From positions 124,001-188,000 of the forward strand of contig WFMF01000174.1 of NCBI GenBank assembly GCA_011033025.1: a DNA stretch of 64,000 nt, in the 5' to 3' direction. This document shows positions 11,401 to 63,673 of the stretch, one piece after another. This DNA is from Beroe forskalii. Taxonomy: Eukaryota; Ctenophora; Nuda; Beroida; Beroidae. The notes beneath the pieces were generated by a model. The model ran no database searches. It had not been told where the DNA came from and saw only the letters and a list, made by a program, of their open reading frames with translations. Each line of letters begins with the position of its first letter. The stretch's first letter is position 1. The position numbers were made by a program, and so were the translations under genes.

Positions 11401-14400
11401 AAGAATGTATTGAACAATATCGGACGAACCTCTTCCCAGAATTCTTTGTAAAACTCCGCAGATAACCCGTCCCATCCTGGGGACTTGTTGTTCTTCAGTT
11501 TAGTCACTATTGCATCCATCTCGAGATAGAAATCCCTCGTCAAGCTCATCTGATAGGGCGCTATCTAGTGTGTTAGACAACAGTTAATCAAATAGTTATC
11601 AATGTCTTGATTAGTAGGGTTGGTCGAACGGTAAAGAGCTTGATAGAACTCAACTACGTGGTTTGAGATCTCGTTCTGATCATACAGAATCTCACTGTTA
11701 TGATTAATTAGCTTATTGATAGATTTCTTCTTACCATTAGACTTCTAAACCATAAAAGTACTTAGTAGAGCGCTCCCTTCCTCCACCCACTGGATACGTG
11801 ACCTGGTTATAATACCCTTTACTTCTTGGTCAATAATAGAGTTTAATTTAATCTCATTGTCAAAGTATTGCTTACGCAGCCTACTGTCCGTCATAAAATC
11901 TGGGATACGCTTGATCCGCTCAATTTCGGACTCTATAGCTGATTTCTCCTCCGCGCACCTTATTTAATTTACCAAATCTAATAGCATAATCTTAACCTTA
12001 AACTTGATAGTGTCCCAAACTCCTCGATAGGAATCAAAACTGCTATTCATTGTATCAGAAATGATATTCCTGATATCATTCTTGAATTCGTCCTGAAGGA
12101 GATGGGAATTGTTAAGTTTCCAGTACCCTTTGCCAGGTGTAATAGAAGTTCCTTGTATAGTTAAGGATACATAACTATGGTCTGATCTGAAACCATGGGA
12201 TATATCAGAGGAACATACAGGAAAATTAATAAGGGTATCATTAATGAGAAAGAAATCTAAACGTGAAGCAGTATTACATTTTTTATTAAAGTGGGTGAAG
12301 ATACGCTCATTGTCATGGGTTAAACGGAACACATCACTCATACCGTAGTCGCTAATAATATTATTTATTATATCTTGAGTTTTACGGTTAGCATGAGCCG
12401 GCGAACCCCCCATTTTGTCAAGTGTATTATCTAAAACAGTGTTCCAATCGCCCGCCATAATGACGTAGTCGTCGCGGGCGCGACCTAAGGTCTCCATAAA
12501 CACCGTTTGCATGAAATTTGCATCATCATTATTAGGTGCATAAACATTGACAAGACAATAGTTAATATCATCCCATTCTGCTTCTATCAGAATTGCACGA
12601 CCCTGACAGATACTCTTATGAGAAGTTATCTTAATGGATGAGTTACGTTTGACCAAAACCGCCACACCAGTAGAGTTTGAAGTGCCGTGATTAAAGTAAA
12701 TATCACCTCCCAATCCTTCCTCCACAGAGCCTCAGAACTCTGGGTGGAATGTGTCTCCGCACAAAAATAACTTCTTCAGGCTTGGCTTTCAGCCAAGTGA
12801 GAACCGACTTACGTTTTTGCGCGTCTCCCAGACCATTACAATTATAAGTAGCTATTCTAGGACCTAGCGCCACTCTAGATTCCCTATTTGATAACATAAG
12901 TAAACAATCGCCCACGATCCAACAAAGGGTGGCAGTTGTCATAAATACCTTAGTTCAGCTCCTGCACCATGTATCACCACATTTGCATAGCTGTTAATTT
13001 TTCCAAAATAAAATAAAAAATATAAACACACAACACACGAAAATAAAGGAGAGAGAAGGGCATGGGAAAAAGGCTAGATAGAAATGTAGATTGCCAAAAT
13101 TTGAATTCCATGGTCCTAGCTATAAGGGTGATTATCATTCACTGGACCAAGCATCCAGGTATAAAAAATGAAGATTATAATACCATCTTAAATGTGTTAA
13201 ATCTCAATTTTTGCTAAAGGATAATGTAAGATCGAATGAGGGGCATCGAACCGTGAGAAACAAAAATGGGAGCGTTTTAACGCAGTGCACCCAATAGTAC
13301 ATATTACAGTTAAAAACTGTATCTGACATCACCTAATGAATCTATTTACATTGTTTGTTTGTGACGATTTTCCTTCTTTTTTTCTTTTTCTTTTTTTCTT
13401 TTTTTCTTTTTTTCTTTTTTTTCCCTTTATTTATTTATTTATTTTTTTTTTCTCTTTTTTTTTCTTTTTACGGTTTTAAAAACTTTTTCCTTCCTCTTTT
13501 CATTGATTTCGAAAGATATGCTTTTAAAATCATTGTACCGGTACTGTACGTGATGATTAAACTGAATCCGTACCTCTGTTAGTGTTAGGAAAAATCTTGC
13601 GTAGTTAACAGAGAGTCCGGCACTCGGCAGAGTCCTTCCTTTCTGAGACCCGACACAGCAAAGGATCTGTTAACACTCTAGAAAACACCCACTGTCACGG
13701 CAAGCACCCTCTGAAGTGAGTCATTAGTACCTAGTAAGAAGACTGCTGGCATGACAATAGGTACCTAGATACCAAAAGCATGAGATTGAGAGGAACCTTC
13801 AGAGTGAGGGTTGTAGGAGAGTAATAAAAGTGTAATAATGGAGATCTTATATGTTGTCATCTCGATTAGACCAGTATTTATAACGTGTGTTTTTAGGACA
13901 CATAATTGTGCTTAAGTGAAAGGTCAACACATTGTCACATTGAATACACATTAAATGCGAAGTTAAAAAAACATTTATGACATGTATACACGAAGTCACA
14001 TAATAAAGACACTCACCAATGTCTGAGCATAAACTATGTACATGAATACACACGCAAACAAGCATTGAAACTTGATAATGATCACTTTGACACAGTTATG
14101 AATTATGAATGATATCTCAAAAACGTGACCGCTTTAAGCATGTGACCACTGACCAATTACTCACTTAGCATTAAAATCAATTTCCAGTTGTACTAAAACT
14201 AGTTTCATATTTTAAATTATAATTCCTAACCCTGAATCTTTGATAACTCCGTGTCACGTAAACTTACATAATCGTTACTTTACTTTTAGTGCCTGCAGCC
14301 AGCCATGTATTTGTGAATTACAAATTTTGAGGAATTGAAAATGAGTGGAGCTTGAACCATAGAGAATTTATTGGGCTCCGGACATCAGTACATATCGGGT

Positions 14401-15528
14401 AACATAATACTCCCTCCAGGTCTGTCATGGTAAACTGGATAAAGTATGCTCGTTGGGAGGAAGAACAGCAAGAATACCCACGAGCGAGGTATTTCAATCT
14501 TATCAATCCACATTTAATCCTCATACAGTACTGTATCTCAGAAGTTGCGACTTCTTCAAGTGACTTGACATGCTGAATTTTCTGCAGTTACCCGTAGTTA
14601 CTGTAACATAGCCATCTTTCATCGCGATTTTACCGCTACATCATATGTATTCTAGTAATCAACTATATATGCTTAGACCAACCATACTGTGTAGTTGAAT
14701 ATGAAGCGACCATGTTTCAAGTCATTATGACCTTAAGATTCCAAGTTTCGGCGAATAGAATAAAAATGAGTACTAAGAGATACCATGACTCACGGAACTC
14801 TGCCAATTCTTTTATATGTCTGGGCTATTAGAGACTTCTTTCGCGAATTTGGTTCGCAAGATCCACTGACCTTTACATCTCTATTTTACTTAAGTCAGTG
14901 TTTGCACGATGAAATTTATTCATTTGCAAACACTATTTCTTTTCGTAGTGCGCTTCTGCGCTTCTAAGCCGGTCAGATTGATCGATGATGTGCGTTTTTA
15001 GTCAAGCCAAGCACTTAATTAATTGCTGCATCTACCTTAGTACACCTAAGAACGGCATCACGTAATTGGCGCGCACTTTAAGATCGGCGCACTTTATTAG
15101 TGCGGTTTTTATGACTTGAGATCGAAAACGATAATCGATATGGAATTGAGAACCGAAATATGTATAAAAACGAATTCGAAAACGCAAAATTCAATGAAAT
15201 TGTTCACTTAATTTCATGTGCACTTAATTACTGTACACTTAATTAGTGCGGTTTTTCCCAAACCGCACTAATTAAGTGACGCCGTTCTTAAGTGTACTAA
15301 GGTACTCACTACTTCGACTCACAGTAGTACTTACAGTCTTACACTTACAGTGTACTTACAATTTACTTACAGTCTAATTACAGTACACTGTACAGACTAC
15401 ATGCACACGAATAGTATGAGCAATAAGTACTCTTTGTCAGGTCAGTGTACGAGCGAGCGTTGGACGTAGATCACAGGTGTCTGCCTATCTGGTTGAAGTA
15501 CACAGAGATGGAAATGAGACACAAGCAG
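7737..15528 (+). CDS. CRNKL1: Crooked neck-like protein 1 (splicing factor), exons 1-4 only
   Basis: Four exons splice in frame: 7737-7836, 8085-8229, 14420-14488 and 15441-15528 (402 nt, 134 residues). Recognisable segments in order are '[13 protein letters not shown]', '[15 protein letters not shown]', '[14 protein letters not shown]', '[20 protein letters not shown]' and '[12 protein letters not shown]' with '[14 protein letters not shown]'. These match the N-terminus and first HAT repeats of CRNKL1/Clf1, a scaffold of the NineTeen-related spliceosome complex in the nucleus. Exon joins are phase 1, 2, 2 and 0 with GT-AG borders (for example CTCCCTCCAG before exon 3 and TCTTTGTCAG before exon 4). 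Intron 2 (6.2 kb) hosts a 44-nt poly-T and an L1/Tx1 LINE. Exon 4 runs straight into a 25-bp minisatellite built from its own 3' end. The family normally continues for more than 500 further residues, none of which I find downstream. This is either a truncated copy, a gene broken by the insertions, or an assembly misjoin. Confidence 0.88.
8449..8492. repeat. Poly-T tract of 44 bases
   Basis: An uninterrupted run of 44 T lies in CRNKL1 intron 2. It could be the reverse of a poly-A tail from a minus-strand retroelement; the following 8493-8720 sequence is unrecognised and non-repetitive within the window. Confidence 0.9.
9120..12945 (-). mobile_element. Degenerate L1/Tx1-type LINE, ORF2, in CRNKL1 intron 2
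   Basis: Read on the minus strand, an endonuclease/exonuclease/phosphatase domain starts near 12870 ('[17 protein letters not shown]') and continues to 11964 with 'VNVYAPNND', '[10 protein letters not shown]', '[11 protein letters not shown]' and '[10 protein letters not shown]'. The RT follows with '[20 protein letters not shown]' (about 11510-11445) and '[15 protein letters not shown]' (about 10930-10880). A C-terminal Cys/His knuckle, '[19 protein letters not shown]', lies near 9475-9420. This domain order and the 'KSPGWDG..EFYK' wording are characteristic of L1/Tx1 elements. At least one frameshift splits the endonuclease near 12725, and several stops and frameshifts break the RT, so it is inactive. 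It lies opposite to the host gene. Confidence 0.85.
13360..13470. repeat. T/C-rich low-complexity tract
   Basis: TTTTC and TTTA repeats dominate. The apparent Phe-rich reading frame here is only a consequence of the composition. It lies in CRNKL1 intron 2, beyond the 5' end of the LINE. Confidence 0.85.
13580..14410. other. Unique intronic sequence of CRNKL1 intron 2
   Basis: No coding or repeat signal was found apart from the acceptor TACTCCCTCCAG that ends the intron at 14419. Confidence 0.5.
15035..15302. mobile_element. 268-bp MITE with TA target site, in CRNKL1 intron 3
   Basis: Terminal inverted repeats CCTTAGTACACCTAAGAACG (left) and its near complement ending GTGTACTAAGG (right) are flanked by TA on both sides, suggesting a Tc1/mariner-type insertion. 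The interior holds a second perfect palindrome around 15236-15278 (CACTTAATTAGTGCGG and its complement). There is no coding capacity. Confidence 0.75.
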
Positions 15529-15967
15529 GTGGGTGGAAATGAGACACAAGCAGGTGGGTGGAAATGAGACACTAGCAGGTGGGTGGAAATGAGACACAAG
15601 CAGGTTGGTGGAAATGAGACACAATCAGGTGAGTGGAAATGAGACACAAGCAGGTGGGTGGAAATGAGACACAATCAGGTGGGTGGATTGAGACACAAGC
15701 AGTTGGGTGGGAATGAGACACAAGCAGGTAGGTGGAAATGAGACACAATCAGGTGAGTGGAAATGAGACACAAGCAGGTGGGTGGAAATGAGACACAAGC
15801 AGGTGGGGGGAAATGAGACACAAACAGGTGGGTGGAAATGAGACACAATCAGGTGGGTGGAAATGAGACACAATCAGGTGGGTGGAAATGAGACACAAGC
15901 AGGTGGGTCGAAATGAGACACAAGCAGGTGGGTCGAAATGAGACACAAGCAGGTGGGTGGAAATGAG
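15529..15967 (+). repeat. 25-bp junction minisatellite at the CRNKL1 exon 4 donor
   Basis: About 17 units follow exon 4 without any spacer. Each unit is GTGGG followed by TGGAAATGAGACACAAGCAG. The latter 20 nt are identical to the last 20 nt of exon 4 (15509-15528), and GTGGG is the start of the intron. Every unit thus recreates the exon end plus a CAG|GTGGGT splice donor on the sense strand. A few units vary (AATCAG, GGTGAGTGG, GGTGGGTCG). The array ends in a G-run that merges with the next element. Repeated open frames across it are repeat artefacts. Confidence 0.95.
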
Positions 15968-17118
15968 GGGGGGGGGCCAACCTCGAAAAACCCCGGGTGG
16001 ATATAAAAATTGGCAAATGGGGGTTTAATTTTTCGGGGTTTATGAGGGTTTAAGGAGGCTAAACTGATAAAAATAGCCGTTTTTCGGTCGGAAAATTCGA
16101 TTTTCTCTCAAAATGGTACTACTTTAGTTGTGGATTTTCGGCTCTTCTCTCAAATGGTACCATATTTGTTGAGGATTTTGGCACTTTTCTGAAATGGTAC
16201 CATTTTTGTTGAGGATATTCGACCCTTTTCTGAAATGGTACCATTTTTGTTGAGGTATTTTGGTCCTTTTCTGAAATGGTGCCATTTTTGTTGACGATTT
16301 TCGACCCTAATCTGAAATGGTACCATTTTTTTCTTAGGTATTTTCAACCCTTTTCTGAAATGGTACCATTTTTGCTGAAGATTTTGAGCACTTCTCTGAA
16401 ATGGTACCATTTTTTGTTGACGATTTTCGACCCTTTTCTGAAATGGTACCATTTTTGATGACGATTTTCGACCTTAATCTGAAATGGTACCATTTTGTTG
16501 AGGATTTTCAACCCGTTTCTAAAATGGTACCATTTTTGCTGGGGAATTTTGGCCCTTTTCTGAAATGGTACCATTTTTATTTTTTGTTGAGGATTTTCGA
16601 CCCTAATCTGAAATGGTACCATTTTTTAAAGATTTTCAACCCTTTTCTGAAATGGTACCATTTTTGCTGGAAATTTTTTTCTGGGCACTTTTCTGAAATG
16701 GTACCATTATTGTTGACGATTTTCGACCCTTTTCTGAAATGGTACCATTTTTGTTGAGGATTTTCAACCCTTTTCTGAAATGGTACAATTTTTGCTGAAA
16801 ATTTTTGGCAGTTTTCTGAAATGGTACCATTTTTGTTGAGGATTTTCGAACCTTTTCTAAAATGGTACCATTTTTTGTTGAGAAATTTTAAGATTCATTC
16901 AGAAACAGTACCATTTTATAGAAAATATTTTTCAAATGGTACCACTTTTGATGATGATTTTCGACCCTTTTCAGAAATGGTACCATTTTAGTTGTGGATT
17001 TTTGGCCCTATTTTGAAATGGTACCCATTTAAACCCCCAAAAACCCCAAAGTGGATATAAAAAAGCCAATTAGGGGTTTAATTTTTCGGGGTTTATGGGG
17101 GTTTTTCGAGGTTAGCCC
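15968..17118. mobile_element. Foldback-like element with AAATGGTACCATTT tandem repeats
   Basis: The ends are inverted: GGGGGCCAACCTCGAAAAAC on the left and its complement GTTTTTCGAGGTTAGCCCCC on the right. Just inside each end is a direct copy of 'GTGGATATAAAA', 'GGGGTTTAATTTTTCGGGG'. The body (16100-17030) consists of ~60-bp tandem units centred on TTTTCTGAAATGGTACCATT followed by 'GAGGATTTTCGACCC'. The repeat core is palindromic (AAATGGTACCATTT), so both strands show similar open frames. No transposase was found. Similar repeats occupy 3450-4240 and a similar terminus lies at 7540-7612. Confidence 0.75.
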
Positions 17119-17213
17119 CCTGTATCAGCTGTCACTGGGACTTGCATCAAAGACTGATCAAACTTTTGTAATTTGTTTTTGGACTTTGTATTTGGATGGT
17201 TATTTATATGGGG

Positions 17214-20200
17214 TTAATGGTTATGGATAGATCTCTCGTTTTTAAGGGGCGTCTTTTTGGGAATCAATCTCAAGCATACCAGAATTTTGTTGCATTCATC
17301 ACGATGTATCTTCTTGCGATCTGTCTTGATAGGTTTTGCGTAAATTGGTTCCTCGCCATCTTCGCTTGCTCCCTGATCAAGGACTCGAATAAGTATCCTT
17401 CCAAATCCTGTGAAATTTTCAAGAAGGTTTTGTTTCTGCAATCCCCACCCCACTCACCTGAATCCTTTTTCTCCACTCATTTACCTGATTCTCCACTCAC
17501 TCACCTGATTCCCCGCTCACCTGATTCTCCCACACTCACCTGATTCTCCACTCACCTGATTCCCCACTCACCTGATTCTCCACTCACCTGATTCTCCACT
17601 CACCTGATTCACCACTCACCTGATTCTCCACTCACCTGAATCCCCACTCACCTGATTCCCCACTCACCTGATTCCCCCGCTCACCTGATTCACCACTCAC
17701 CTGATTCTCCACTCACCTGATTCTCCACTCACCTGATTCACCACTCACCTGATTCTCCACTCACCTGAATCCCCACTCACCTGATTCCCCACTCACCTGA
17801 TTCCCCACTCACCTGATTCACCACTCACCTGATTCTCCACTCACCTGAATCCCCACTCACCTGATTCCCCACTCGTCTGATTCCCCGCTCACCTGATTCA
17901 CCACTCACCTGAATCCCCACTCACCTGATTCCCCACTCACCTGATTCTCCACTCACCTGATTCTCCATTCACCTGATTCTCCACTCACCTGATTCTCCAC
18001 TCACCTGATTCTCCACTCACCTGAATCCCCACTCACCTGATTCCCCACTCACCTGATTCTCCACTCACCTGATTCTCCACTCACCTGATTCTCCACTCAC
18101 CTGATTCTCCACTCACCTGATTCCCCACTCACCTGATTCCCCGCTCACCTGATTCACCACTCACCTGATTCTCCACTCACCTGATTCTCCACTCACCTGA
18201 TTCACCACTCACCTGATTCTCCACTCACCTGATTCCCCACTCACCTGATTCACCACTCACCTGATTCTCCACTCACCTGAATCCCCACTCACCTGATTCC
18301 CCACTCGCCTGATTCCCCGCTCACCTGATTCACCACGCTCACCTGAATCCCCACTCACCTGATTCCCCACTCACCTGATTCTCTACTCACCTGATTCTCC
18401 ACTCACCTGATTCTCCATTCACCTGATTCTCCACTCACCTGATTCTCCACTCACCTGATTCTCCACTCACCTGATTCTCCACTCACCTGATTCTCCACTC
18501 ACCTGATTCCCCACTCACCTGATTCTCCACTCACCTGATTCTCCACTCACCTGATTCACCACTCACCTGATTCTCCACTCACCTGAATCCCCACTCACCT
18601 GATTCCCCACTCACCTGATTCCCCGCTCACCTGATTCACCACTCACCTGATTCTCCACTCACCTGATTCTCCACTCACCTGATTCACCACTCACCTGATT
18701 CTCCACTCACCTGAATCCCCACTCACCTGATTCCCCACTCACCTGATTCCCCACTCACCTGATTCACCACTCACCTGAATCCCCACTCACCTGATTCCCC
18801 ACTCGCCTGATTCCCCGCTCACCTGATTCTCCACTCACCTGAATCCCCGCTCACCTGATTCTCCACTCACCTGAATCCCCACTCACCTGATTCTCCACTC
18901 ACCTGATTCCCCACTCACCTGATTCTCCACTCACCTGATTCTCCACTCACCTGATTCACCACTCACCTGATTCTCCACTCACCTGAATCCCCACTCACCT
19001 GATTCCCCACTCGCCTGATTCCCCGCTCACCTGATTCACCACTCACCTGAATCCCCACTCACCTGATTCCCCACTCACCTGATTCTCCACTCACCTGATT
19101 CTCCACTCACCTGATTCTCCATTCACCTGATTCCCCACTCACCTGATTCTCCACTCACCTGATTCTCCACTCACCTGATTCTCCACTCACCTGATTCCCC
19201 ACTCACCTGATTGCCCACTCACCTGATTCACCACTCACCTGATTCTCCACTCACCTGAATCCCCACTCACCTGATTCCCCACTCGCCTGATTCCCCGCTC
19301 ACCTGATTCTCCACTCACCTGATTCTCCACTCACCTGATTCTCCATTCACCTGATTCTCCACTCACCTGATTCTCCACTCACCTGATTCTCCACTCACCT
19401 GATTCTCCACTCACCTGATTCTCCACTCACCTGATTCACCACTCACCTGATTACCCACTCACCTGATTCTCCATTCCCCCCCCCCACTCACCTGGTTCTC
19501 CTCATCTTGTATTCCTCTGATGATCACTTCGCTCCTAGGAGCTGTTCTGCCCAGTGTCCTGACTAAGTGTCCAGTGTTCTCGTAGACAGCACTGCTAAGT
19601 GATATTTGGGGGGAGGGTATGAGGTGGGACTCCACCAGCACAGGAACACTTTTACCAAGAGTCGAGGGGGGACTAGGCGACATGTCATAGAACTTGGATT
19701 TACCCAGCTTCTTTTTACTTGCTTTTTGTTTGGGAACTTTGTCCATCAACTCGTTCAGCACCTTGATACTGCAAGAGAATCTGTTATTGCCCGATTTGTC
19801 AGCCTCTAGCAGGGATTTCTGAATTGACCTTTAATTTATGGTACTGAGGCCGAGTGAAATGCTTGAACTCACCCGTGGTCTTGCTCGTGGTTGTATCTCA
19901 GAACCTCAATGCCGTTTCCACTCAAGGTCCTTGATCTGATAGCCCGGGCACTCTTCATGGCTTGTGAGCCGGCTGCTTCCAGTCTAAAGCGTGGCAACTC
20001 CTCCAACTCCTCCTCACTCTCACTTTCACTGTCCCACCTCTGTAAGGAAGTGAACAATGAATAAAGCCAGGAAGTGAACAATGGAGTCATAATATTATGC
20101 ACAGTTACAATGCTATTACATTGGCGTCATTTTATTGTACTTGTCTTCGTAAAGCATTATCGCTTTTGAAACTCAGCCAGCGCGTCATATTATGGGACTT

Positions 20201-23200
20201 ATTTAGAATTCAAATAGTTTGCGCGGTTTCTTGAATTTCTACGAATTAAGCATATTTTAGAAAATAGTTTCAGTTGTTGTAAAGGGTGTGGTACCTTCGC
20301 AATTATTCAATCACATGGAATTCATCAATCAATTTTGCTTAGCCCGGTTTAGAATTAGATTGTTATTAATTAATTATAAGTTACCGTTACGTACCACTGA
20401 CTCCCTGTTTTGCAGTAACCGAATGTGGTCAATAGCCACGTCATAATGGTCATCATTGTGTGGACCAGACTGAAATTATTTGCACTGCTAGCTTGGTGGT
20501 TAGAAAATAACATCGCCTTTTGCTCCAGTCATCTCAATGTGTAAGGGAATAGAAAGAATCAATCACTCAATATAAATTGTACATTGGTCTCTTGAAGTTG
20601 AAGTGTTGGGTTGGTCTAATGAACCTTATTGTCAATCTTTGAAAGTTTGACGTGGAATAAAAGAGCTGAGATCGATTTAATCAGTTCTTCAAATTTGTAA
20701 CTGAAAAGTTGTTGAACTATTGAAGAAACGTGCTTCAAATGACGATCGGACCTGACGATTGCCAGATCCGATGCGATCTTAGCGAATAATTTACCGGTAC
20801 ACCACTAAAACATACCCTCTTGAAGTTGGGGAACGTATAAGTGTAGTCGGGGTTGCTTGGTTCTACGGTCACTCTACATGCCGGCTCTAAGGTGATGTGA
20901 GTAGGTTCCAAGGTGATGTGAGTAGGCTCTAAGGTGATGTGAGTAGGTTCCTCTATCCTCACTGCATCACTGTGCGATCCTTCTTCCAGCTCTTCGCTGT
21001 GCAATACTTCCTCCACTTCTCCGTCATCAGCTGTAGTACCTGCCACCAATCTGTCTACAGCAGCTGACCCATTGTCTCCAAGTCCCGCCTTCACCTGAGA
21101 TTCCGCTGTCTGTGCAAGCACTCCTCGGTTCAAAGTTAGGCTTGGATGGTGGATGTTCCCCGTTGCGTTTCTTCTGCTCGATTCTGAGCAAATTAACTAA
21201 TTAATGATAACCAATGACGATATCGGCTTCCCATCATGACTTCACGATAGCAGTTAGCACCAGCATGTTTGAAGTGTTAAAGTTAAAAAAGTGTTATGGC
21301 TGGTAGTCTCACTGCATCTCACTGCATTATGCCTGTAATCTTACTGCGTTATAACTGTAGTCTCACTGCATTGTACCTGTAGTCTCACTGCATTGTACCT
21401 GTAGTCTCACTGCATTGTACCTGTAGTCTCACTGCTCTTTACCTGTAGTCTCACTGCATCGTACCTGTAGTCTCGCTGCATTGTACCTGTAGTCTCACTG
21501 CACTGTACCTGTAGTCTCACTGCATTGTAATTGTAGTCTCACTGCACTGTACCTGTAGTCTCACTGCACTGTACCTGTAGTCTCACTGCATTGTACCTGT
21601 AGTCTCACTGCATTGTACCTGTAGTCTCACTGCACTGTACCAGCTGTAGTCTCACTGCATTGTACCTGTAGTCTCACTGCATTGTACATGTAGTCTCACT
21701 GCATTGTACCTGTAGTCTCACTGCATTGTACCTGTAGTCTCACTGCATTGTACCTGTAGTCTCACTGCATTGTACCTGTAGTCTCACTGCACTGTACCAG
21801 CTGTAGTCTCACTGCATTGTACCTGTAGTCTCACTGCATTGTACATGTAGTCTCACTGCATTGTACCTGTAGTCTCACTGCACTGTACCAGTAATCTCAC
21901 TGCATTGTACATGTAGTCTCACTGCATTGTACCTGTAGTCTCACTGCATTGTACCTGTAGTCTCACTGCATTGTACCTGTAGTCTCACTGCAATGTACCT
22001 GTAGTCTCACTGCATTGTACCTGTAGTCTCACTGCATTGTACCTGTAGTCTCACTGTATTGTACCTGTAGTTTCACTCCTTATTTCAAGCTTTCGAGCTC
22101 GTAATTTCATTATTTCTATCATTCACGAATTACGTGATTTTCTCATTGGTATTGTGTGAACATAGCACAGTAGCCTAAACACGGATGAGTTCATTTGGAA
22201 GACGGTGTTAAAACAGATAACATGACAGATCATCACGGGTTAAACAGATACCGAGGACACAACACTAATGGATGTGATTCGTTGTTTTGACTTATGAATT
22301 TGTATTTAAGTGTACAATGAAATTGTAAAGAGGAGACTATTTCGTACATGAGTTAGAAGTGCTTTTCTCTTGTGGAAACTCATTCAATCAAGACGAAGTT
22401 ATCTCAAATCTACCTGGAATTCTACCTGAATTATAACTGAAGTTCCATCTAAATTATCTCTATATAAATTGAAATATAAAGAACTCTTATTTAAAACAAA
22501 TGGAGCCTGATAAAAATTGGATTATGATCCTCGACTCGATGATGGAGATTGGAGCTACTGAAGTTCTGGATGTTTTGGACTTTCAATGAAGTGTGGATAA
22601 AGTTCTACTGCTGCTGGTACTGGTGTTCTTGATGAAGTTCTACTGCTGCTGGTGTTCTTGATGAAATTCTATCAGGAAGAATCAAATCTTGATCAAGCTG
22701 AATCAGATTGAATGGTGCCAAAAAGGCATATTCACTGTTCAGGTATGGCAAATCTATTCTGATTTGAAGCAAAATCGAAACCAGAAACGACCTAGTTTCA
22801 ATGAAGGCAAAATAATTTTGCTTGATTCTATGAACAATCTAAGAATCAAATTGAAACCACAAATATTGTGGATGAGCACTGGACAGCTAAATCTGCTGTT
22901 TCTTCAGAATATACCGATTTTGCGTGTAACAATCAAATTCTCGATTGAAACTTTACAGACGTGATCAAGAATAATGGTCACAGTTATGAATGTTATAGCC
23001 GACCATGATACAGCAGACGTGATATATTTCATCACATATTGGTCGAATGAACATCAAAGATTTGATGATCACTTGCCTTAATAAAAGAGTGTAAAAGATT
23101 ACACAAAGAGTATAAGGTGTGGTGTAACAAGACAGTTACAATTCCTGCAAATTTAACAGGCTAATTGTTAGCTTCAATTTCCATAAACATAATTGAAAAA

Positions 23201-26200
23201 ACAATTATGAATCCTTCAAAAAACTTGGAAATGAAACAAGTGAACAAGTGCTTTCTTTACTGGAGCTCTATTGTATTCAAATCAAAATATGATTCTCGTA
23301 CATTATGTTACTGTAATGCCAAATGATGTCATAGTAATTTGCAGACTGAATGGAGTTGTTGCATTCATTAAACCACTAAATATGTGTGTTTTGGTGTGTT
23401 ATGAAAAACAGTAACACAATACAAGGTTTAAATCGTGTTAAACATCACTGAATGTCAGTGACCCGCAGAATAACTGCCAACTGGTTGAGTAGACAACCAG
23501 ATGCAGACGGAAATAATGAATTACATCAAAAAGCCGTGGGCATTTCAACTTTGGAAATAATTGTTATTCATGCAAATTGTGCAGGTGTAGGTGTACTAGT
23601 TCACAGTAAAATTTGTGAGCATTACGAATAATTGTAATGTTGAAAAACAGTCACAAACGATGTCACAAAAATGTGATGAATGCCGACGTGGGTGGCAGAC
23701 TCTTCAGGAATTACCTGTTTGGAGTTCGTAGATGATTCAGGATTTGTGGTTATCCCACCTGTCTAGCTAAAGCTTTGACACCCCTGGTTCAAGTAGTAGT
23801 ACTTAAACAGTACAGGGACTACAGTGTGCTTCTGTGGAATAAAGACCCACCTAAGTCACACGGATGGATCTCGATAACATGGGCAAGGTTCGCAGCTCAC
23901 GAATCCTCCAGTTCCAGGGACAAATTGGGTCCACATTTTCAGATCAGTCTATGATGACTGAAGTGTCTCGCAGTTATCATCCACAAGGATGATACCACCG
24001 ATGGTCTATCTTCTCTAACTCCCGATAAAAAGAAGTGGATGGATTCTGCTTTAACAATGTCCTTAGCTCAGTTGGTTAAATGGAATTCGAATTCAAAGTG
24101 ACCTAGCAAGGTAAGTGGTTAATAAGTGAATGAAGTGATGTTGATGATGATATGATGACGTGTTGAAATTGAAATAAAGTTGATTACTTACGCAAGGACG
24201 ACAGGGAGTGCGAAGGAGAGTACTAAAATAGCAAGTGTGGTATCTTCTTATCTTAGGCAATGAAATTGTTCATTATGTGTTTGGTGCAATGGTGCATGAA
24301 AATATTATGCACGATAAAGAATGCAAAAAGTGCACACTGGGACTTGGTACACCGCAGACCGCAGTGTTATTAATGGCAGCATGAAATATTCATTGAATTG
24401 AATGCATGAAATCGAATGCATAAATGCATGAAAGCAATGCATAAATTAAATAAATAAATTGAATGCATAAAATGAATGCATCAATTGAGTGCATTAACTT
24501 AATGCATGAATTTATTGCGTTAATTTAATGCATGAATTTAATGCATGAATTTTATGCATGAATTTAATACATGAATTGAATGCATAAATTAAATGCATGT
24601 AATTGTATGCATGGATTGACTGTATATAATTGATTGCATAAAATTGAATGCATAGAAATCTAATGTATGAAATTGAATATGAGTGATAATGAATCGATAC
24701 ATCATCAACATGGAATAGAAATTCGAGATAAGGAGGCCATGCATGCAGCAGTTCATCATGCATTGGTGTACAAAACCCAGCCGATAAACGCAGAACATTT
24801 TAGTTTTACTAAAATGTCCTCAAAGTTTGTTGTGGGATTTGTTTCACTCCTTATTTCAGCTTTCCAGGCTCGTAATTTCATTATTTCTATCATTCACGAA
24901 TTACGTGATTTTCTCATTGGTATTGTGTGAACATAGCACAGTAGCCTAAACACGGATGAGTTCATTTGGAAGACAGTGTTAAAACAGATAACATGACAGA
25001 TGTCACGGGTTAAACAGATACCGAGGACACAACACTAATGGATGTAGATTCGTTGTTTTAACTTATGAATTTGTATTTAAGTGTACAATATAAATTGTAA
25101 AGAGGAGACTATTTCGTACATGAGTTAGAAGTGCTTTTCTCTTGTGGAAACTCATTCAATCAAGACGAAGTTATCTCAAATCTACCTGGAATTCTACCTG
25201 AATTATAACTGAAGTTCCATCTAAATTATCTATTACATAAAGTAAAGTCACACGTGAATAATGTTTGTCTGTAATTCCGTATACAATTAAATTTGAGCTT
25301 GCCAAGAAGATATCAAGAGAAACGAGGGCAAAAGCGAGAAAAGAGGTGCCGTTGCTATGGAAACCGATTTTGGTGCACGTGCAGATTATGATCAGTTCTA
25401 TGCAAGTGCTTTCTATTAAGCTACTACTGTTAAATGCTGAGCTGTAATTTTTGAAAATTTGACGTTTTCTTTACTTCAAATTCAAGATCTCAAGATAGGT
25501 GTAGCACTGTAGCAGATACGAGGACGGTACCTGTTCTGGATCAACGTGAACGAAACAAATTTGTCCAATTTAAGTATGAGAAATAGTTGTAAGAACTGAA
25601 ATCATCTTGCAATCAAAACGGATCAAAATTCACATGGTTTAGCACGACTAAAAGTAACCAACGAAGTTCTATTTTCCAATCTGCTCCTTCATAAAATCTG
25701 ATATTTGATTTATTTGATTTGATAGGGATATTTTGATGCGGTAAAATTAAAAACTATCCAATCAATTTGAATGGTACTGTTTAAAATTTGCGAAAGAGGT
25801 GCTGCATATTAGTGCCGAGTGAGCTGTGGTTTAGCAGGTCCAACGGGCCGGCTAGTCTCTATATAAATTGAAATATAAAGAACTCTTGTTTAAAACATAG
25901 TCTCACTGCATTGTACCTGTAGTCTCACTGCATTGTACATGTAGTCTCACTGCATTGTACCTGTAGTCTCACTGCACTGTACCAGTAATCTCACTGCATT
26001 GTACATGTAGTCTCACTGCATTGTACCTGTAGTCTCACTGCATTGTACCTGTAGTCTCACTGCATTGTACCTGTAGTCTCACTGCAATGTACCTGTAGTC
26101 TCACTGCATTGTACCTGTAGTCTCACTGCATTGTACCTGTAGTCTCACTGTATTGTACCTGTAGTCTCACTGCACTGTACCTGTAGTCTCACTGCACTGT

Positions 26201-26582
26201 ACCTGTAGTCTCACTGCATTGTACCTTTAGTCTCACTGCATTGTACCTTTAGTCTCACTGCATTGTACCTGTAGTCTCACTGCACTGTACCTGTAGTCTC
26301 ACTGCACTGTACCTGTAGTCTCACTGCACTGTACCTGTAGTCTCACTGCTCTTTACCTGTAGTCTCACTGCACTGTACCTCTAGTCTCACTGCATTGTAC
26401 CTGAAGTCTCCGTGAAGAGGGTTCTGTTCCAACTGAATAGCAGCGGAGTGTGATATGACAGTGTCCACATAGCTGGTGTTAGGGGCTCCTGGCACTACCT
26501 GGACTTCTTCCACCACACTGGCCAGCAGGGAGTCCACTAGGAGGTCTTCTGTGCCACCAGCTTTTAGTGTTACTTCGCCCAT
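17214..26582 (-). CDS. Unrecognised five-exon acidic protein
   Basis: A five-exon minus-strand model is phase-consistent: 26401-26582 (ATG at 26582), about 20816-21140, 19873-20039, 19492-19768 and 17214-17435 (stop). It totals 1173 nt, 390 residues. Splice borders include CTTCAG|GTACAA, AAGAGG|GTATGT, CACGG|GTGAGT, GAACCAG|GTGAGT, and acceptors CTTCCTTACAG, TTCTCTTGCAG and GGGGATTGCAG. The 5' edge of exon 2 is the weakest point, since the proposed acceptor ATCCAAG is poor and an extra exon is possible. Visible features are an acidic N-terminal half, three tandem copies of 'THITLEP' near residue 105, a Ser/Glu tract 'DSESESEEELEELP', a basic 'KQKASKKKLGKSK', and a C-terminal 'AKPIKTDRKKIHRDE'. 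There is no signal peptide, membrane segment or domain I recognise, and no function is proposed. Introns 1 and 4 are minisatellite arrays. Confidence 0.6.
17436..19491 (-). repeat. 16-bp junction minisatellite filling an entire intron
   Basis: About 128 units span intron 4 of the minus-strand gene from the donor (19491) to within a few bases of the acceptor (17436). On the sense strand the unit is GTGAGTGGAGAATCAG. Its first 6 nt equal the intron start, and its last 10 nt (GGAGAATCAG) match the exon end GGAGAACCAG at 9 of 10 positions. Each unit therefore contains a consensus CAG|GTGAGT donor. Variant units (GGGAATCAG, GGTGAATCAG, GGGGATTCAG) recur in blocks, showing higher-order duplication. 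Confidence 0.95.
20878..20952 (-). repeat. 24-bp tandem repeat inside coding exon 2
   Basis: Three consecutive 24-bp units in the minus-strand exon encode the octapeptide series E/P-THITLEP. Unit differences are mainly synonymous (TTAGAG versus TTGGAA for Leu-Glu), which suggests the repeat is translated and constrained rather than junk read-through. Confidence 0.85.
21299..22069 (-). repeat. 22-bp junction minisatellite, distal block of intron 1
   Basis: About 34 copies of a unit reading on the gene's sense strand as GTACAATGCAGT followed by GAGACTACAG. The block is the continuation of the array at 25898-26400 on the other side of a 3.8-kb insertion. Variants such as GTACATG, ACCAGTAATC, CAATG and TGTATTG mark individual units. 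Confidence 0.92.
24390..24680. repeat. AT-rich 'GAATGCATAAATT' tandem repeat
   Basis: Around twenty irregular units of AATGCATGAATTT / AATGCATAAATTG occur inside the direct-repeat element. The palindromic ATGCAT core is in most units. Confidence 0.85.
25232..25853. mobile_element. Secondary insertion in the right direct repeat
   Basis: Comparison with the intact left copy (22455-22465, ATTATCTCTATATAAATT) shows that ~620 bp beginning ATTACATAAAG and ending GGGCCGGCTAG was inserted here in the right copy. It has no recognisable ends or coding content. Confidence 0.6.
25898..26400 (-). repeat. 22-bp junction minisatellite starting at the exon 1 donor
   Basis: The array begins at the donor of exon 1 (CTTCAG|GTACAATG, junction at 26401/26400) without spacer. 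The unit is 12 nt of intron start (GTACAATGCAGT) plus 10 nt (GAGACTACAG) matching the exon end GAGACTTCAG at 9 of 10. There are about 23 units here. The first ~265 bp (25899-26165) repeat the same order of variant units as 21805-22069. Confidence 0.93.
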
Positions 26583-27312: not shown

Positions 27313-27910
27313 ATTGTCAAATCCCCCCCTCCCTGACACCACTCATTTCATTTATAAGCATCCTCTCACCTTCCATCTTGATCTTCAGCTGACGACGATA
27401 ATCACATGATTTTCGAAAGCTCCTGATTTAAAGTTTATCGTATCATTTAAACGTTTTAACTTGCTCTCTACAGTTGTCAAATCCCGTTGATTGGAATCAT
27501 GTTAACCTACTTTGATAACAACAATCCAGATTCATTGGATTCAAATTTGTCAGATGTTGTCAGACAGCGTCTGACAAATCACATTGGATAATTGGACTTT
27601 AGTGGCTTTTGTTGATTTTTTTTTCAATTCACGCGTGTTTGATTTTCACGACTGTTGATCGGATTCAAATCATGTACCAGTGACGTAAAGCAATCACAAT
27701 ATGTACCATTTGTTGTAGCCTCTTCCAGCAAGCAGGTGTTGTAATTGTATTAATCGTGTAGTGTATCATCGTAAGTTTCATGAGGCTCTGCACACCAACT
27801 TGCCTGCCACCAATACACGTTTTATACATGTCTCCAAAGTACCAGATCTAACAGAGACAATGGCTTGGAATCTAGATATGTTGCAATCATTGCTATAGTT
27901 GCTGTTTCAT

Positions 27911-29059
27911 ATGTTTCGTCAGTACGTTGCCTGTTCCTTTCAAAAAGGTATCCTCTCAGGCATCCTTCTTTTTAGCCTGAAATGTTTGATCCTAATTTGG
28001 TCCATGAACTGGGACCTTTGGCGGTCATCAGTGAGTGGTTCGTTTGTCCTTTATTTCGTCCATCAAAATGTCCTCATGACTCGAGTGAAGCATTTATCAT
28101 ACTACGATGAAATGCAGAGTATGATCAACACGGAGGCCGAGTATCGGAACAAGATTACAGCTCACATCAACACAGAATGTCTGAGGAATCATGCCTCGTA
28201 CGATATCCGCCAAGCAGGCGTTGTCAAAACCTTCAAATCCTTGCCTGATCATGCTCTGGGTAACATGATAGCTGACAAGAAAAGGAGATTCCTCTACACT
28301 CGGATCTTAGGAGCTCTTGGGGCGAAGTGGTCGTCTTACATGTCCATTCTCAACAAGAATGACGGTGGGCGGGACAATCTGTTGAAACTTTCGACACTTC
28401 TCACTACAGCTAATGGGCAGGAATATCTGGAACAGAATTATTCGAACTTCTTCAAATTCTATTTCGTGAGAAATCCCTTGGACCGTGTGATCAGCGGCTA
28501 TTTCTACTACTTTGCCGACTTGAAGTACGCACAGCGGTATCTGAACGGCACAGCACTTGCAGAACTACTTACGATCAATCAGCTCGACCCTGCTTCCGTT
28601 CGAAACATCACATTCGAGGAGTACCTGAGGTGGGTTACCCGTGGGGAGACCGCCCTCACACACTTCGGAGTGCAATCCGAGGTGGTGTTCCCATGTGAGC
28701 TGCAGTACAACCTCCACGGTCTATTCGAGATGATGCACCGGGAAGAGACTATCGTGCGGAACAGAGTGCCAGGCCTGGCGATAGATCCCCGGCCGGCTGA
28801 GTTCACTACACAGCGAGACTTGGAGTTGCTCACTCGAGAGGCTAGGGAATTGCTAGTGAGTGTCAATGACAAGCAGGTCATAGCGCAGTTTTACGCGAAG
28901 TTCAGTGAGGATTACAGGATCTGGAACTACAGCAAGCCGTGGGATTGGTGGTATCCGTTTCCCAGCATCATTAAGATGCACAGACACCCTCAACCTAACA
29001 TGAGCAATGCTCGCTGGCCAAAAGTCAGCGATCCGACTGAGGAATATGACGTTCCATAG
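27911..29059 (+). CDS. Carbohydrate (Golgi-type) sulfotransferase, copy 1
   Basis: Single-exon frame of 382 residues from the ATG at 27911. Residues ~13-32 (GILSGILLFSLKCLILIW) form a hydrophobic segment fitting a type II signal anchor. The 3'-phosphate-binding box is clear at 'FKFYFVRNPLDRVISGYFYY', with the Arg and Ser spaced as in the Sulfotransfer_2/CHST8-14 group, and 'FEEYLRWV' follows. The upstream 5'-phosphosulfate loop, normally PKxGxTNWK, reads 'TRILGALGAKWSSYM': the Trp is kept but Pro-Lys is lost. The C-terminus ends 'NYSKPWDWWYPFPSI'. A good acceptor-like CCTTCTTTTTAG ends at 27975, so the N-terminal 22 codons could instead be intronic with translation from ATG 28004. The family transfers sulfate from PAPS to glycans in the Golgi lumen. 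Activity is uncertain with this loop. Confidence 0.75.
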   Translation: MFRQYVACSFQKGILSGILLFSLKCLILIWSMNWDLWRSSVSGSFVLYFVHQNVLMTRVKHLSYYDEMQSMINTEAEYRNKITAHINTECLRNHASYDIRQAGVVKTFKSLPDHALGNMIADKKRRFLYTRILGALGAKWSSYMSILNKNDGGRDNLLKLSTLLTTANGQEYLEQNYSNFFKFYFVRNPLDRVISGYFYYFADLKYAQRYLNGTALAELLTINQLDPASVRNITFEEYLRWVTRGETALTHFGVQSEVVFPCELQYNLHGLFEMMHREETIVRNRVPGLAIDPRPAEFTTQRDLELLTREARELLVSVNDKQVIAQFYAKFSEDYRIWNYSKPWDWWYPFPSIIKMHRHPQPNMSNARWPKVSDPTEEYDVP

Positions 29060-29589
29060 TCACACTTGCTCTAATAAGGTTAATATCATTTATCAGTATC
29101 ATGATTACTCGAGCGAGATTCATACAGTCATCGCTCATGCTCAGAGCTGCAGTTTTGCTTTTCAATTTCACAGATACCTTTCGTGATTTTGGTGGAAATA
29201 AGCGCTCTTACTCTCTTAGTCTTAGTCTACAAATAATAACAATAAGTAGATAAGTATTATGGAGAGAAAACAAGCTGAAGCACAATTCTTGATTCAGATT
29301 GAATTTATCTAATTAACTGAACTCGACTGACTTTTTAAAATTGAGTGATTACAAATTTGAAGAAGCGTCTATAGAAATAAAAGTGTATAAGTAAACGATA
29401 AAAGTTTCTATCGGCTATGATCGGGTTCCATCGGTGTTCGGCGCGTGTGGTTGTGAAACTGAAAAACTATGATTTTATGTATCTGCACTGGTAACTATTA
29501 TTAAACTATCAGACATCAATAGCTGAAAATGATGTTTTAATGTTTTAATCTAATGTCATATTGAGAAGGAATATTTCAATTGAATAACA

Positions 29590-30207
29590 ATCAATAGTTC
29601 TTGCGTCTCACCCAATCTCATGCCTATCGCGCCGCCCATTTTTTTTAGGCCGTCTCATATTTGGTCTAAAATCAACTTTTTTGAGATAATCAACTTGGTG
29701 GTATTTCAGTATCCCCCACTTGCCATAAAAAGATGTGACAACTTTATTTTTGATCAAAACTGAAATTTCACGTTTGCACCGGCCACACCCTTTTTCAGCT
29801 GAAAAAGCATTAGGATTTACGCCAACACCATCAAATAGCTTTTGGGTACAAACGAAATGCTATGGAGTCTTCCTACAGTCACTATCGTTTTTTCCCACTC
29901 TAGAGAATGGTATAGAAGAAGAAATTAGGTGAAAACATAGCTCAGAAGCCGAGTTATGACGATTTTAAGTTGCCAATTGTACACGATTTGTTGTCTGTGA
30001 TAATAACTTTGCAGATGAAGCATCTTAAAATCCCCTTTTAATACTTATAATTATACTTCTTGGCACCTGTCTTCATTTCTATCATGGTCTTGGGTCTCAG
30101 GAAATGGAATGGGTGAAAAATTGTAGAGGAGTCGTCAATATAAAAGTCGATTTTAGAATTATTCCGCTGCAAAGTTATTATCAAATGCAACACATCGTGT
30201 ACAATTG
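29590..30207 (+). mobile_element. Dispersed repeat between the sulfotransferase copies
   Basis: From about 29640 this matches 34540-34912 (same strand) and 45838-46330 (opposite strand); a diverged part lies at 38180-38400. Landmarks are GCCGTCTCATATTTGGTCTA, GCACCGGCCACACCC, CAGTCACTATCGTTTTT and TTGCCAATTGTACACGAT. The last ~230 bp (29975-30207) are an imperfect inverted repeat: GATAATAACTTTGCAG and its complement, with TTGCCAATTGTACACGAT at the outer ends. Inside is 'TGGCACCTGTCTTCATTTC', which is also present in the CR1-like LINE at 45845-45865. Confidence 0.65.
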
Positions 30208-30240
30208 GCAACAAAAACGTCGTCGATTCTTATTTGGTCC

Positions 30241-39641: not shown

Positions 39642-39649
39642 TTTCTTAG

Positions 39650-40419
39650 GGTCCTCCCTGCATTCCTGGAACTGAGAGCATTTGTAAGATTGTTTAGCCT
39701 GATATATAACATGTTTGAGGGTTCTACGATAATTACTAAATATTCTATATAATTCACCATTACCATCTGGACTACTTTTAGTGATAGTGTTTTTTAATTC
39801 ATACTTTCGATTGATTGATTCAATTATGCCTTCAGTTATCCAAGGATTATTAAGAATTGTTCTTTTTGTTGTCTTAGGTGTGGATAACTTACAGTTTTTG
39901 TCAAGGCAAAGGTTGTATTTCTTAAAAAAGTCACTGAAATTTGTTGGTTCATTGTCCAGAATTTTTTCATGCTCACTTACGAAATTGTTTACATTTTTGT
40001 TACTGAAGTCATAATATTGGGTTTGCTTTTCAGTTCCACTATGTATTTTTGGGGTTATATCGGAAAAATGGAATGCAGGGAGGTGGTGGCTCATTTTATC
40101 ACTTATAGTACCAGAGACAAGAATATTATGGATACCATTTGTGAAGATGTTATCAATACATGACTTGCTAGTGCCTGGTCTTTCGTGTGTGTATGTGGAT
40201 ATGAGTGGAGTAAAGCCTGCAGATAAGAAAGTGTCCTCATATTTGCTAAAAATCTTTTTATTGATCAGATCTAAATTGAAGTCCCCCATGATAAATACAT
40301 TATCATTGGGCAAAAATTCAAAAATTTTTTCAAGTTTGTCGCAGAAGTTATCCTTGTTGCCATCATTGGGACGGTATACTACTCCAAATGTAATAGGGGT
40401 ATCTGTGCTTGTGGACGGC
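39650..40419 (-). mobile_element. CR1-like LINE, endonuclease C-terminus and linker
   Basis: Minus strand, following on from FB-C: 'TDTPITFGVVYRPNDGNK' (about 40408-40355), 'FIMGDFNLDL' (about 40295-40265), 'SKSCIDNIFTNG' (about 40170-40135) and 'MSHHLPAFHF' are the late motifs of the AP-endonuclease domain, including the GDFN and SxH boxes. A linker to the RT follows, ending 'QECREDPKK' at 39650. The segment ends exactly at the FB-B target duplication. Confidence 0.85.
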
Positions 40420-60698: not shown

Positions 60699-63673
60699 AT
60701 GTCCCAGCTGGTGAAGCCTCCTCCCAAGTTCTCTCCCTTCGAATGGCAGCAGAGCAATAACAAGAACTACAGCAGTGCTGAGATCGAGCGAGCAGGCGCT
60801 GAGCGGCTGCAGAGCGAGAGTAAGCGACTCACGGACGAGACGGACGAGATTACTCGCTTTACGCAGGAGGATGTCAACAAGAAACTCGCTCAGCGACTCA
60901 AAGAACTCAGCTTCTGGAAAGATGAGGTAGGACATCAACCATGTACCTTATTGGCCTTTATTTAGCCGGCCTTTTTTAACCAGCCCTTTTTTTACCCGGC
61001 CCTATGGACAAAAATCGAATCATTTTTGAACCATTTTAACCGGCCCCTTGGACAAAATTTTTTGAGGTAGTTGCCAAAACAAGAAAATTTTGCTCAAAAA
61101 TAGTCACAAAAACCAACTTACACTAAGTAAATTGTATCAAAAAACTCAAATACTGGTCTAATATCATGATTTAGGTCATTATCTGTATTATATTATGACG
61201 CTCAAATGAATTTGCCAGTACATAAGCCAAGTTAAAAAGTTTCATCTGACCTCAATCAACTGGCCTTTAATTTAATTGGCTCCATTTTAACCGGCCATTT
61301 TTTTAACCGGCCCTTTGGACAAAAATCTCAAAGTCGTTTTTGTCCTAAAGGGCCGGTTAAATAAGGGCCAATAAGGTCCTGATTAATCTACATAAATCAG
61401 GACCAGGTGTTATTTTTTCGGTGGCGTCAGTTGAGTGTTGGTATTAAGTCCGATACGGATAATCATCTTATAAATCGTGTATGGATCTTATGATCGTTAT
61501 GATGCCTTTCGTAGTTTTAGATGATTACCATAACATGGTTTTATTGTAAGGTAAACTGTCAACTGCAAGCAGTGGACGATGAGATTGACACGTTGCTGAA
61601 GTTTAAAGCTAAGCTAGAGAGGAGTCTGGAAGCCACTGAGCACCCGAAAAGCGTGACGAACAGCTGTCTAACTTACAGACAGGGGAGGGAAGGGATTGAC
61701 ATGGTCCACGATGATGTTGAGATTAATCTCCTCAAGGTGAGTGTCACCAGGAAATGGTAGAATGATAATTATAAATCATGAATTAAGTCTTTATAAATGA
61801 CAAGCATTATCAAAAAAGCAAAAACGGGTATCGGAAACATGCGAAATATTTTTCCAGTGGCAGTGAACTTTTTACGGTGTCAGTGAGTTATTGATAAACT
61901 CTGTAATGATCATTTAGTTATTCTATATCTGATCTTATGATTTCTCAGGAAGTGGAGGTTATTGAGGGTGTACGGTCTGTCCTGGTCAGGACCTTGGAGC
62001 AGACCATCGAGCAGATTAGGAGGCTCCGATCAGCCAAGTACTTCCTGCAGAAGGATGTGGCGGACAAAAAGTCTGCCATCTCCATTGACAACACCTGTCA
62101 TACTCTCAACAACAAAGACTCTGAGATCAACCTCTATGAGAATGTCACTCAGGACTTGGTAAGGTAAGTGTACGCAGGTATTTGTTACATCGAGTATTCT
62201 ACATCGAGTAATTTTAGAATATTGTAGATATTTACAATGGTGATTCGGGTCTCCAAATCACCGCTTTTATTTGAAAATTGGACTCATTCTCCAATTCACA
62301 TCTACTCCCACTAACCTTCCTGAATTTCCAGCCCTTCTACTCCCCCATTTCCACTCTGAAACCTCTCTCACTCTAAAAACCCCTCCAACTCTGAAACCCC
62401 TCCAACTCTGAAACCCCTCCAACTCTGAAACCCCTCCAACTCTGAAACCCTTCCCACTCTAAAACCCTTAACACTCTTAAACCCCTCCCACTCTGAAACC
62501 CCTCCCACTCTGAAGCCCCTCCCAATCTGAAACCCCTCCAACTCTGAAACCCCTCCAACTCTGAAACCCCTCCAACTCTGAAACCCTTCCCACTCTAAAA
62601 CCCCTAACACTCTTAAACCCCTCCTCCTCTGAAACCCCTCCCACTCTGAAACCCCTCCAACTCTGAAACCCCTCCCACTCTGAAACCACTCCCACTCTGA
62701 AACCCCTCCCACTCTGAAACCCCTCCCACTCTGAAACCCCTCCAACTCTGAAACCCCTCCGACTCTGAAACCCCCCCACTCTGAAACCCCTCCCACTCTG
62801 AAACCCCTCCCACTCTGAAACCACTCCCACTCTGAAACCCCTCCAACTCTGAAACCCCTCCCACTCTGAAACCACTCCCACTCTGAAACCCCTCCCACTC
62901 TGAAACCCCTCCTACTCTGAAACCCCTCCTACTCTGAAACCCCTCCCACTCTAAAACCCATCCCACTCTGAAACCCCTCCCACTTTGAAACTCCTCTCAC
63001 TCTGAAACCCCTCCCACTCTGGAACCACTCCCACTCTGAAACCCCTCCCACTCCCAGTTCTGTAACGCCCGCTGATTGGAGCAACTACTCGGACGCTAAC
63101 ATCAAGAAGGCCGAATGTGAGAAGCAAGCGTCCGTTGCCCTGCGGTCTGTGATCGGAGGGGTCATTGAGCAGACGTGCAACGACCTGTTGACTCAATGCC
63201 GGACTGTGGACCTGGCCCTCAAGAAGCGGGTGGAGGAGTGCTTCAATGCCAAGGAGCGCCTTACTGTGCACCTCGACAAGGTTTGTTTGGTGGAGAGCAC
63301 GTGTGGTATCATGCCAATTCCATTTTATATGGTTTAGGGGGGCTTCAAATCAGGGGGATGAGCGGCTGCCTGGAACTATCCACAGAAACTGAATTACACA
63401 ATTATTGTAATGAATTACCTAGACTTTGAAATCGAAGTAACTTGCGCAGGTTACATTACGCCAATGCAATTCAATCAGGTGAACTCTGAGATTGAGAGTA
63501 TGGAGAGCAACATCTGCAAGTTGAAGGAAGCAATCGAGGCTAAGTTGCCGCCTCTGAAAGTGGCTCACACGAGGCTTGCCCAGAGGAGTCAGCGTCCCAA
63601 CGTTGAGCTCACCCGCGACCCAGCTCAATTCCAACTCGTCAGCGAAGTCAACCTCATCGAACAATCCATTTCT
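60699..63673 (+). CDS. TEKT1: Tektin-1, exons 1-5 (3' end beyond window)
   Basis: Exons 60699-60926, 61551-61736, 61949-62163, 63058-63280 and 63479-63673 splice in frame to 349 residues; phases are 0, 0, 2, 0 and 0, with GT-AG borders. The N-terminus 'MSQLVKPPPKFSPFEWQ' and 'DVNKKLAQRLKELSFWKDE' match tektin-1 rather than tektin-2 or tektin-4. Later segments 'LTYRQGREGIDMVHDDVE', 'VIEGVRSVLVRTLEQTIEQI' and 'SVTPADWSNYSDANI' follow. The nonapeptide tektin signature appears as 'RPNVELTRD', where the usual Cys is Thr, just before 'PAQFQLVSEVNLIE'. Tektins are coiled-coil filaments lining the A-tubule of ciliary and flagellar doublets. About 65-70 C-terminal residues are expected downstream. Intron 1 contains a MITE, and intron 3 a 700-bp minisatellite that touches exon 4. 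Confidence 0.95.
60945..61377. mobile_element. 433-bp MITE in tektin-1 intron 1
   Basis: The ends ACCTTATTGGCCTTTATTTA and its complement TAAATAAGGGCCAATAAGGT are inverted. Internally, AACCGGCCCTTTGGACAAAAA recurs in both orientations (60975-61055, 61300-61360). There is no coding capacity and no clear target duplication. Confidence 0.8.
62350..63056 (+). repeat. 17-bp minisatellite abutting the tektin-1 exon 4 acceptor
   Basis: About 40 units of CTCTGAAACCCCTCCCA, pyrimidine- and C-rich on the sense strand, run directly into the acceptor CCCACTCCCAG of exon 4. The CTCTGAAACCCC half of the unit resembles the exon start TTCTGTAACGCC (9 of 12 positions), so the unit may derive from the intron-exon junction. 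Variant units (AACTCTG, TAAAACCCTTAACACTC) repeat in blocks. Gly/Phe/Arg-rich minus-strand frames are artefacts. Confidence 0.93.

Follow-up and report, generated by a model that had tools for sequence, protein, structure and literature searches.

Minisatellite-like arrays of exon-intron junction sequence in three introns of a 64-kb stretch and in other genes of the same genome

Three introns in the window analyzed here, 64,000 nucleotides of contig WFMF01000174.1 (GenBank assembly GCA_011033025.1, positions 124,001 to 188,000, forward strand), carry at their splice donors a tandem array whose repeat unit joins the first bases of the intron to the last bases of the preceding exon. They are intron 4 of a plus-strand CRNKL1 gene and introns 1 and 4 of a neighboring minus-strand gene. 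The three units are unrelated to one another, each array straddles its donor, as an earlier reading of the bare sequence (the original prediction) had claimed, and the pattern recurs at both ends of introns in unrelated genes of this genome, examined as 216 Mb in 1134 contigs (given C numbers below; the window is C219:124001-188000). The arrays are what papers on amphioxus name mirages. Their best explanation, to which we assign a probability of roughly two in three, is that ordinary tandem duplications happened to span a junction and were tolerated, the exon-proximal site still being used, and that minisatellite growth followed.

Anatomy of the junction arrays

Exon 4 of CRNKL1 (15436..15528, plus strand) was found by tblastn with a human CRNKL1 sequence, and encodes a HAT repeat; a Pfam scan of the peptide from exons 3 and 4 returned HAT families. 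The exon ends ..MEMRHKQ|GTGGGTGG with its boundary at 15528, and intron 4 starts at 15529. Tandem Repeats Finder (TRF) and a listing of the units place a 25-bp array of 18.4 copies at 15509..15967 on the plus strand. Its unit is GTGGG followed by TGGAAATGAGACACAAGCAG, in which the exon-derived part equals the final 20 nt of exon 4 (20/20 identical).

In the minus-strand gene, exon 4 (19492..19800, an open frame with an approximate upstream limit) ends ..IQDEENQ| at 19492, and exon 5 (17214..17435) continues it in phase 0, the joined reading running KQNLLENFTGF..SIHNH-stop. Intron 4 between them (17436..19491, minus strand, 2056 bp), placed by its splice coordinates and the exon joint, is occupied almost from donor to acceptor by a 16-bp array (TRF 17498-19473, 123.1 copies). 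The full unit, GTGAGTGGAGAATCAG, is GTGAGT plus GGAGAATCAG, with 9/10 positions identical to the exon tail. Intron 1 of the same gene begins with a 22-bp array (TRF 25898..26410, minus strand, 23.3 copies; exon 1 ends at 26401) whose unit is GTACAATGCAGT plus GAGACTACAG, again with 9/10 identical to the exon tail. A second array of this unit (TRF 21317..22077, minus strand, 34.3 copies) lies further along the intron, and self-BLAST aligns 21804-22077 with 25898-26171, parts of the two arrays, at 99.6% identity over 274 bp; one array may have been split by a recent duplication or insertion. Also recorded in this gene are a 400-bp duplication (96.8%; 22070-22468 and 24841-25241) that adjoins both 22-bp arrays, and a 21-bp in-frame repeat present three times in exon 2 (20889-20951, EPTHITL). 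Two peptides of the gene were scanned and gave no Pfam match; its boundaries, drawn from open frames and, for exons 4 and 5, from agreeing phase, are accordingly less secure. All three arrays lie where the original prediction had put them, but its figure of well over 200 potential donors was too high: AGGT occurs 17 times in the 25-bp array, 121 times in the 16-bp array and 20 times in the 22-bp array, 158 in all, or 183 when 21317-22077 is included.

The agreement between unit and exon exceeds what unrelated junctions provide. Each exon tail was compared with its unit tail, with the invariant AG left out of the score; 1311 array-free AG|GT sites served as controls. The donor-side sample comprised 13 arrays, three from the window and ten from other contigs, with consensus units written by eye; the C77 unit was taken as 37 bp, and one copy was picked for C110:121k, where copies are irregular. 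No control scored as well as CRNKL1 or intron 1 of the minus-strand gene, and two scored as well as its intron 4, which bears out the claim that the unit joins the start of the intron to the end of the exon. In the whole sample, 11 of 13 arrays were equaled by just 0-2 of the controls. The exceptions, C1:25k (64 of 1311 controls; 4 exon nt shared) and C88 (320; 3 exon nt), both start at the donor. On the acceptor side, three of three valid rows, from four tested, were equaled by 0/10317 controls. Here the units consist of the last bases of the intron plus the exon start, the exon part being 26 nt on C1 (25 identical), 12 on C506 (12) and 39 on C110 (38). The fourth row, L017, was left out as void, its unit having been set to the exon head; the 40-bp array of L017 abuts an acceptor with no visible exon overlap. 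In most arrays tested, 9-39 nt of the unit come from the exon, and most units also hold intron sequence absent from the exon tail. A donor score based on shuffled units was set aside as proof (7/60 arrays with p<0.05), the sample being partly selected and the donor matrix approximate.

These results do away with the donor-only rule that had been proposed, since acceptor-side arrays exist and some arrays merely abut a junction. An example in the window is a 17-bp array (62351..63053, plus strand; TRF) at the acceptor of a tektin exon, which was identified by reading and the Pfam family Tektin and runs from about 63058; the array provides the pyrimidine tract, and no overlap with the exon was seen. 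The composition of exon end plus intron start, put forward as a possible general rule, does recur in other genes, but it follows automatically once the first unit overlaps the junction and so does not by itself point to a special mechanism. The rule is partly tautological; its substance lies in how often arrays start within an exon.

A second CRNKL1 copy and the frame test

Contig C142 holds a second CRNKL1 gene start, collinear with the window in blocks of at least 200 bp at about 86-99% identity, with large indels between them. There, an array of 43.7 units is followed by exon 5 (VNHARN..) in frame and by later exons. The array differs in length between the two copies, which are probably allelic: 43.7 units on C142 against 18.4 in the window, where the copy is broken off inside the array. 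The break falls at 15967, the start of a G run and of an element with inverted ends. This element (15960-17125) has ends identical at 22/23 nt and an internal 41-bp array. A tblastn search of the window with the human CRNKL1 sequence found no convincing later exon, intron 4 being incomplete there, and 1.3 kb of the neighboring minus-strand gene (20000-21316) matched the genome once. The break is therefore possibly an assembly mis-join, or else a rearrangement on one chromosome.

When, on C142, the first donor of exon 4 is joined to exon 5, the result is KQ|VNHARN, which we take to be the same joint as in the human CRNKL1 protein, and no leftover copy of the unit is seen at the joint. Of 39 later AGGT donors in the array, 38 would each be preceded by a stop codon, and the other would shift the frame. 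Tolerance of this array would therefore have to stem from use of the first donor, because the later ones spoil the frame. This casts doubt on the earlier proposal that such arrays are tolerated because each copy can serve as a valid splice site. Nor is selection on the copied donors clear: in nine arrays, which include two related pairs, GT is better conserved than other positions of the unit in six but worse conserved in three.

Recurrence elsewhere in the genome

Two samples bear on how common such arrays are. The first was unselected, 90 kb in nine 10-kb stretches (L025-L032 and L040), although some of the contigs had surfaced in searches. It contained 12 arrays with a period of 10-80 and at least 5 copies, and three of them touch a splice junction: one on the donor side of a C2 exon called iPGM (Pfam Metalloenzyme), and one at each end of a single C1 intron, where the array at the donor end carries just 4 exon nt. 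At the other nine no exon was read at the edges, the left edge of L028 lying outside the reading.

The second sample consisted of 13 clusters of triple AGGTRAGT among the matches listed, whose upstream edges were read; five of them had been picked earlier through CAGGTRAGT. Seven begin with at least 9 nt of exon end, or six of 12 if the C77 pair is counted once. They are C2:850k, C77 (two inverted copies of one gene, the second of which, L036, was judged by reading alone), C110:121k, C110:243k, and one each on C1 and C165. The C1 exon matches Peptidase_M1_N and the C165 exon matches QLQ in Pfam, both with the array on the donor side. The Peptidase_M1_N case has just three copies of its unit and is plausibly an early stage. 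Arrays at both ends of one intron were found on C506 and on C1, and one exon on C110 is flanked by arrays on both sides; C506 came to light because it resembles the CRNKL1 array, which makes it a biased case.

Some observations concern repeats of other kinds. A candidate junction array, L023, turned out to be an in-frame coding repeat (GGNETSE). Arrays with no exon anchor occur in the same genome at L026:1-449 and L040:4221-5331. The latter has a 62-bp unit and no exon seen at its edges; with relatives at several other places (C110, C325, C201 and C2), it is a dispersed satellite family. Degenerate nested arrays at L042 (C1:1.947 Mb) have units that resemble short exons between TTGCAG and GTACAG. 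The window also contains a tandem pair of near-identical sulfotransferase-like open frames (27899-31296; Sulfotransfer_2 in Pfam for the first), and open frames at 11964-12731, 35711-37095 and 39636-40418 that by eye resemble the endonuclease and reverse transcriptase of a long interspersed nuclear element (LINE).

Origin of the arrays and comparison with amphioxus

We infer the following course of events. A short tandem duplication, arising by slippage or mediated by microhomology, would by chance cover a splice junction. It would be nearly neutral, since the spliceosome would keep the copy of the site nearest the exon and further copies would become intron. From two copies on, ordinary minisatellite turnover could expand the array to dozens of copies or even past a hundred, and the result would begin (donor side) or end (acceptor side) at the exon.

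Several results weigh against this account. The junction arrays in the unselected 90 kb, 3/12, compare with the roughly 1/10 that neutral placement might give (a rough estimate of ours), and tolerance alone may or may not suffice for their frequency. Among the 13 clusters, one (C88) begins at the donor with only 3 exon nt, two are acceptor-side arrays on the opposite strand, two, both on C159, show no junction in the part read, and one on C1 is left undecided. The opposite-strand pair are C44, a pyrimidine array at an exon matching Rep_fac_C in Pfam with no exon overlap shown, and C153, at an exon matching JTB in Pfam, where a second copy of the junction includes about 18 nt of exon by eye. 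Exons at C506, C1:25k, C77, C110, C2:850k and C88 have no family match above the cut-off, so their boundaries rest on open frames, and at C1:25k the phase of the donor exon does not fit the acceptor chosen there but would fit one 2 nt farther downstream. Finally, triple AGGTRAGT gives 744 matches against 2774 for the reversed-motif control. The longer CAGGTRAGT gives 395 against 53; as the two patterns point in opposite ways and a few large arrays dominate, raw motif counts were dropped as proof.

The strongest competitor, itself unlikely, is a mutational process aimed at junctions, in which R-loops, paused polymerase or template switching at AG|GT would favor the start of a duplication there. 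Unrelated units in several genes that all straddle junctions, the 7/13 donor-consensus clusters that start with an exon tail, and single introns hit at both ends are what it would predict. Survivorship gives the same anatomy, however, with selection removing duplications internal to exons, and the nine of 12 minisatellites without a visible junction in the unselected sample also speak against targeting.

Still less probable is that the arrays record the gain of their introns through tandem duplication of an exon segment containing AGGT, the Rogers model, so that each array would be the birth certificate of its intron. Such duplications have been discussed as a source of introns in potato RdRp, ATP2A1 and fission yeast, the last with introns spanning 24-bp AGGT duplicates cited there (PMC4974935). 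The likeness lies in AGGT-bearing segments duplicated in tandem beside exons. In that model, the duplication makes the intron, whereas here most units contain intron sequence that is not in the exon tail, so the intron probably existed before, and the CRNKL1 joint retains no leftover unit. Minus-strand intron 4, array almost from end to end, fits intron gain better, as does C77:417k, where exon and 37-bp unit agree over 36 nt and the donor itself looks duplicated from exon. A match over nearly the whole unit is found at C77 only, and there an intron may have been born by duplication. Very improbable, finally, are functional copied donors, whether U1-binding decoys, regulated alternative donors or an intron-retention switch: AGGTRAGT, which minus-strand intron 4 contains 105 times, and the six arrays with better-conserved GT would suit them, but GT is worse conserved in three arrays, downstream donors spoil the CRNKL1 frame, and unit and length vary by gene.

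The host is not an amphioxus. Contig C1134 (13,339 bp) carries a COX1 gene 59% identical to the query, in which conserved Trp residues fall on TGA and conserved Arg residues on AGA/AGG (the latter e.g. in DLDTRFYF and FDRN), which indicates code 4. Code 4, with AGR as Arg, differs from the invertebrate and amphioxus mitochondrial codes, and the host is therefore not a cephalochordate. Judged by this code, the host is likely a ctenophore. ARAGORN, run with the bacterial code, found no tRNA in 2.5 kb of C1134. Ctenophore mitochondria are thought to use code 4, to lack tRNAs and to evolve fast (PMC6991124).

Ordinary minisatellites have units of 10-60 bp and high, variable copy number. The junction arrays resemble intronic and intergenic minisatellites in unit size and copy number, but those have no anchor in an exon end. 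Mirages do: two amphioxus papers (PMC3087553, PMC3902484) describe them as exon-intron boundaries duplicated in tandem like a minisatellite, in Adh3, globin, PGBD5 and further genes. They occur at 5' as well as 3' boundaries, many of their copies contain AG/GT, splicing is apparently normal, and repeat number varies between haplotypes. The parallel with amphioxus drawn in the original prediction is thus real. Mirage units cited in PMC3087553 measure 10-72 bp for Adh3 and 150-160 bp for the globin genes, and the globin paper connects mirages to intron gain. As in those descriptions, the unit crosses the exon-intron boundary in the three window arrays and in arrays on other contigs, and AG/GT is present in many copies (as AGGT in the counts given above). 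Unlike them, copy number here goes up to 123, and arrays can take up a whole intron or sit at both its ends; the units are 15-62 bp in the cases read, and the host is not a cephalochordate. Among the titles and abstract openings listed for such repeats in the open-licence literature, none reported mirages outside amphioxus.

We offer only tentatively the wider proposal that, in a ctenophore-like lineage, junction-anchored duplication, active at either end of the intron, is one of the chief sources of intron sequence and growth, independent of amphioxus. If such a process operates, splicing must reliably pick the exon-proximal site among up to about 100 near-identical donors. The arrays are natural experiments in splice-site choice, with dozens of near-identical donors in competition, and in CRNKL1, the one gene tested, the protein frame permits the first donor only. 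If mirages prove common outside cephalochordates, tandem duplication across splice junctions would be a general way for introns to grow and perhaps to arise.
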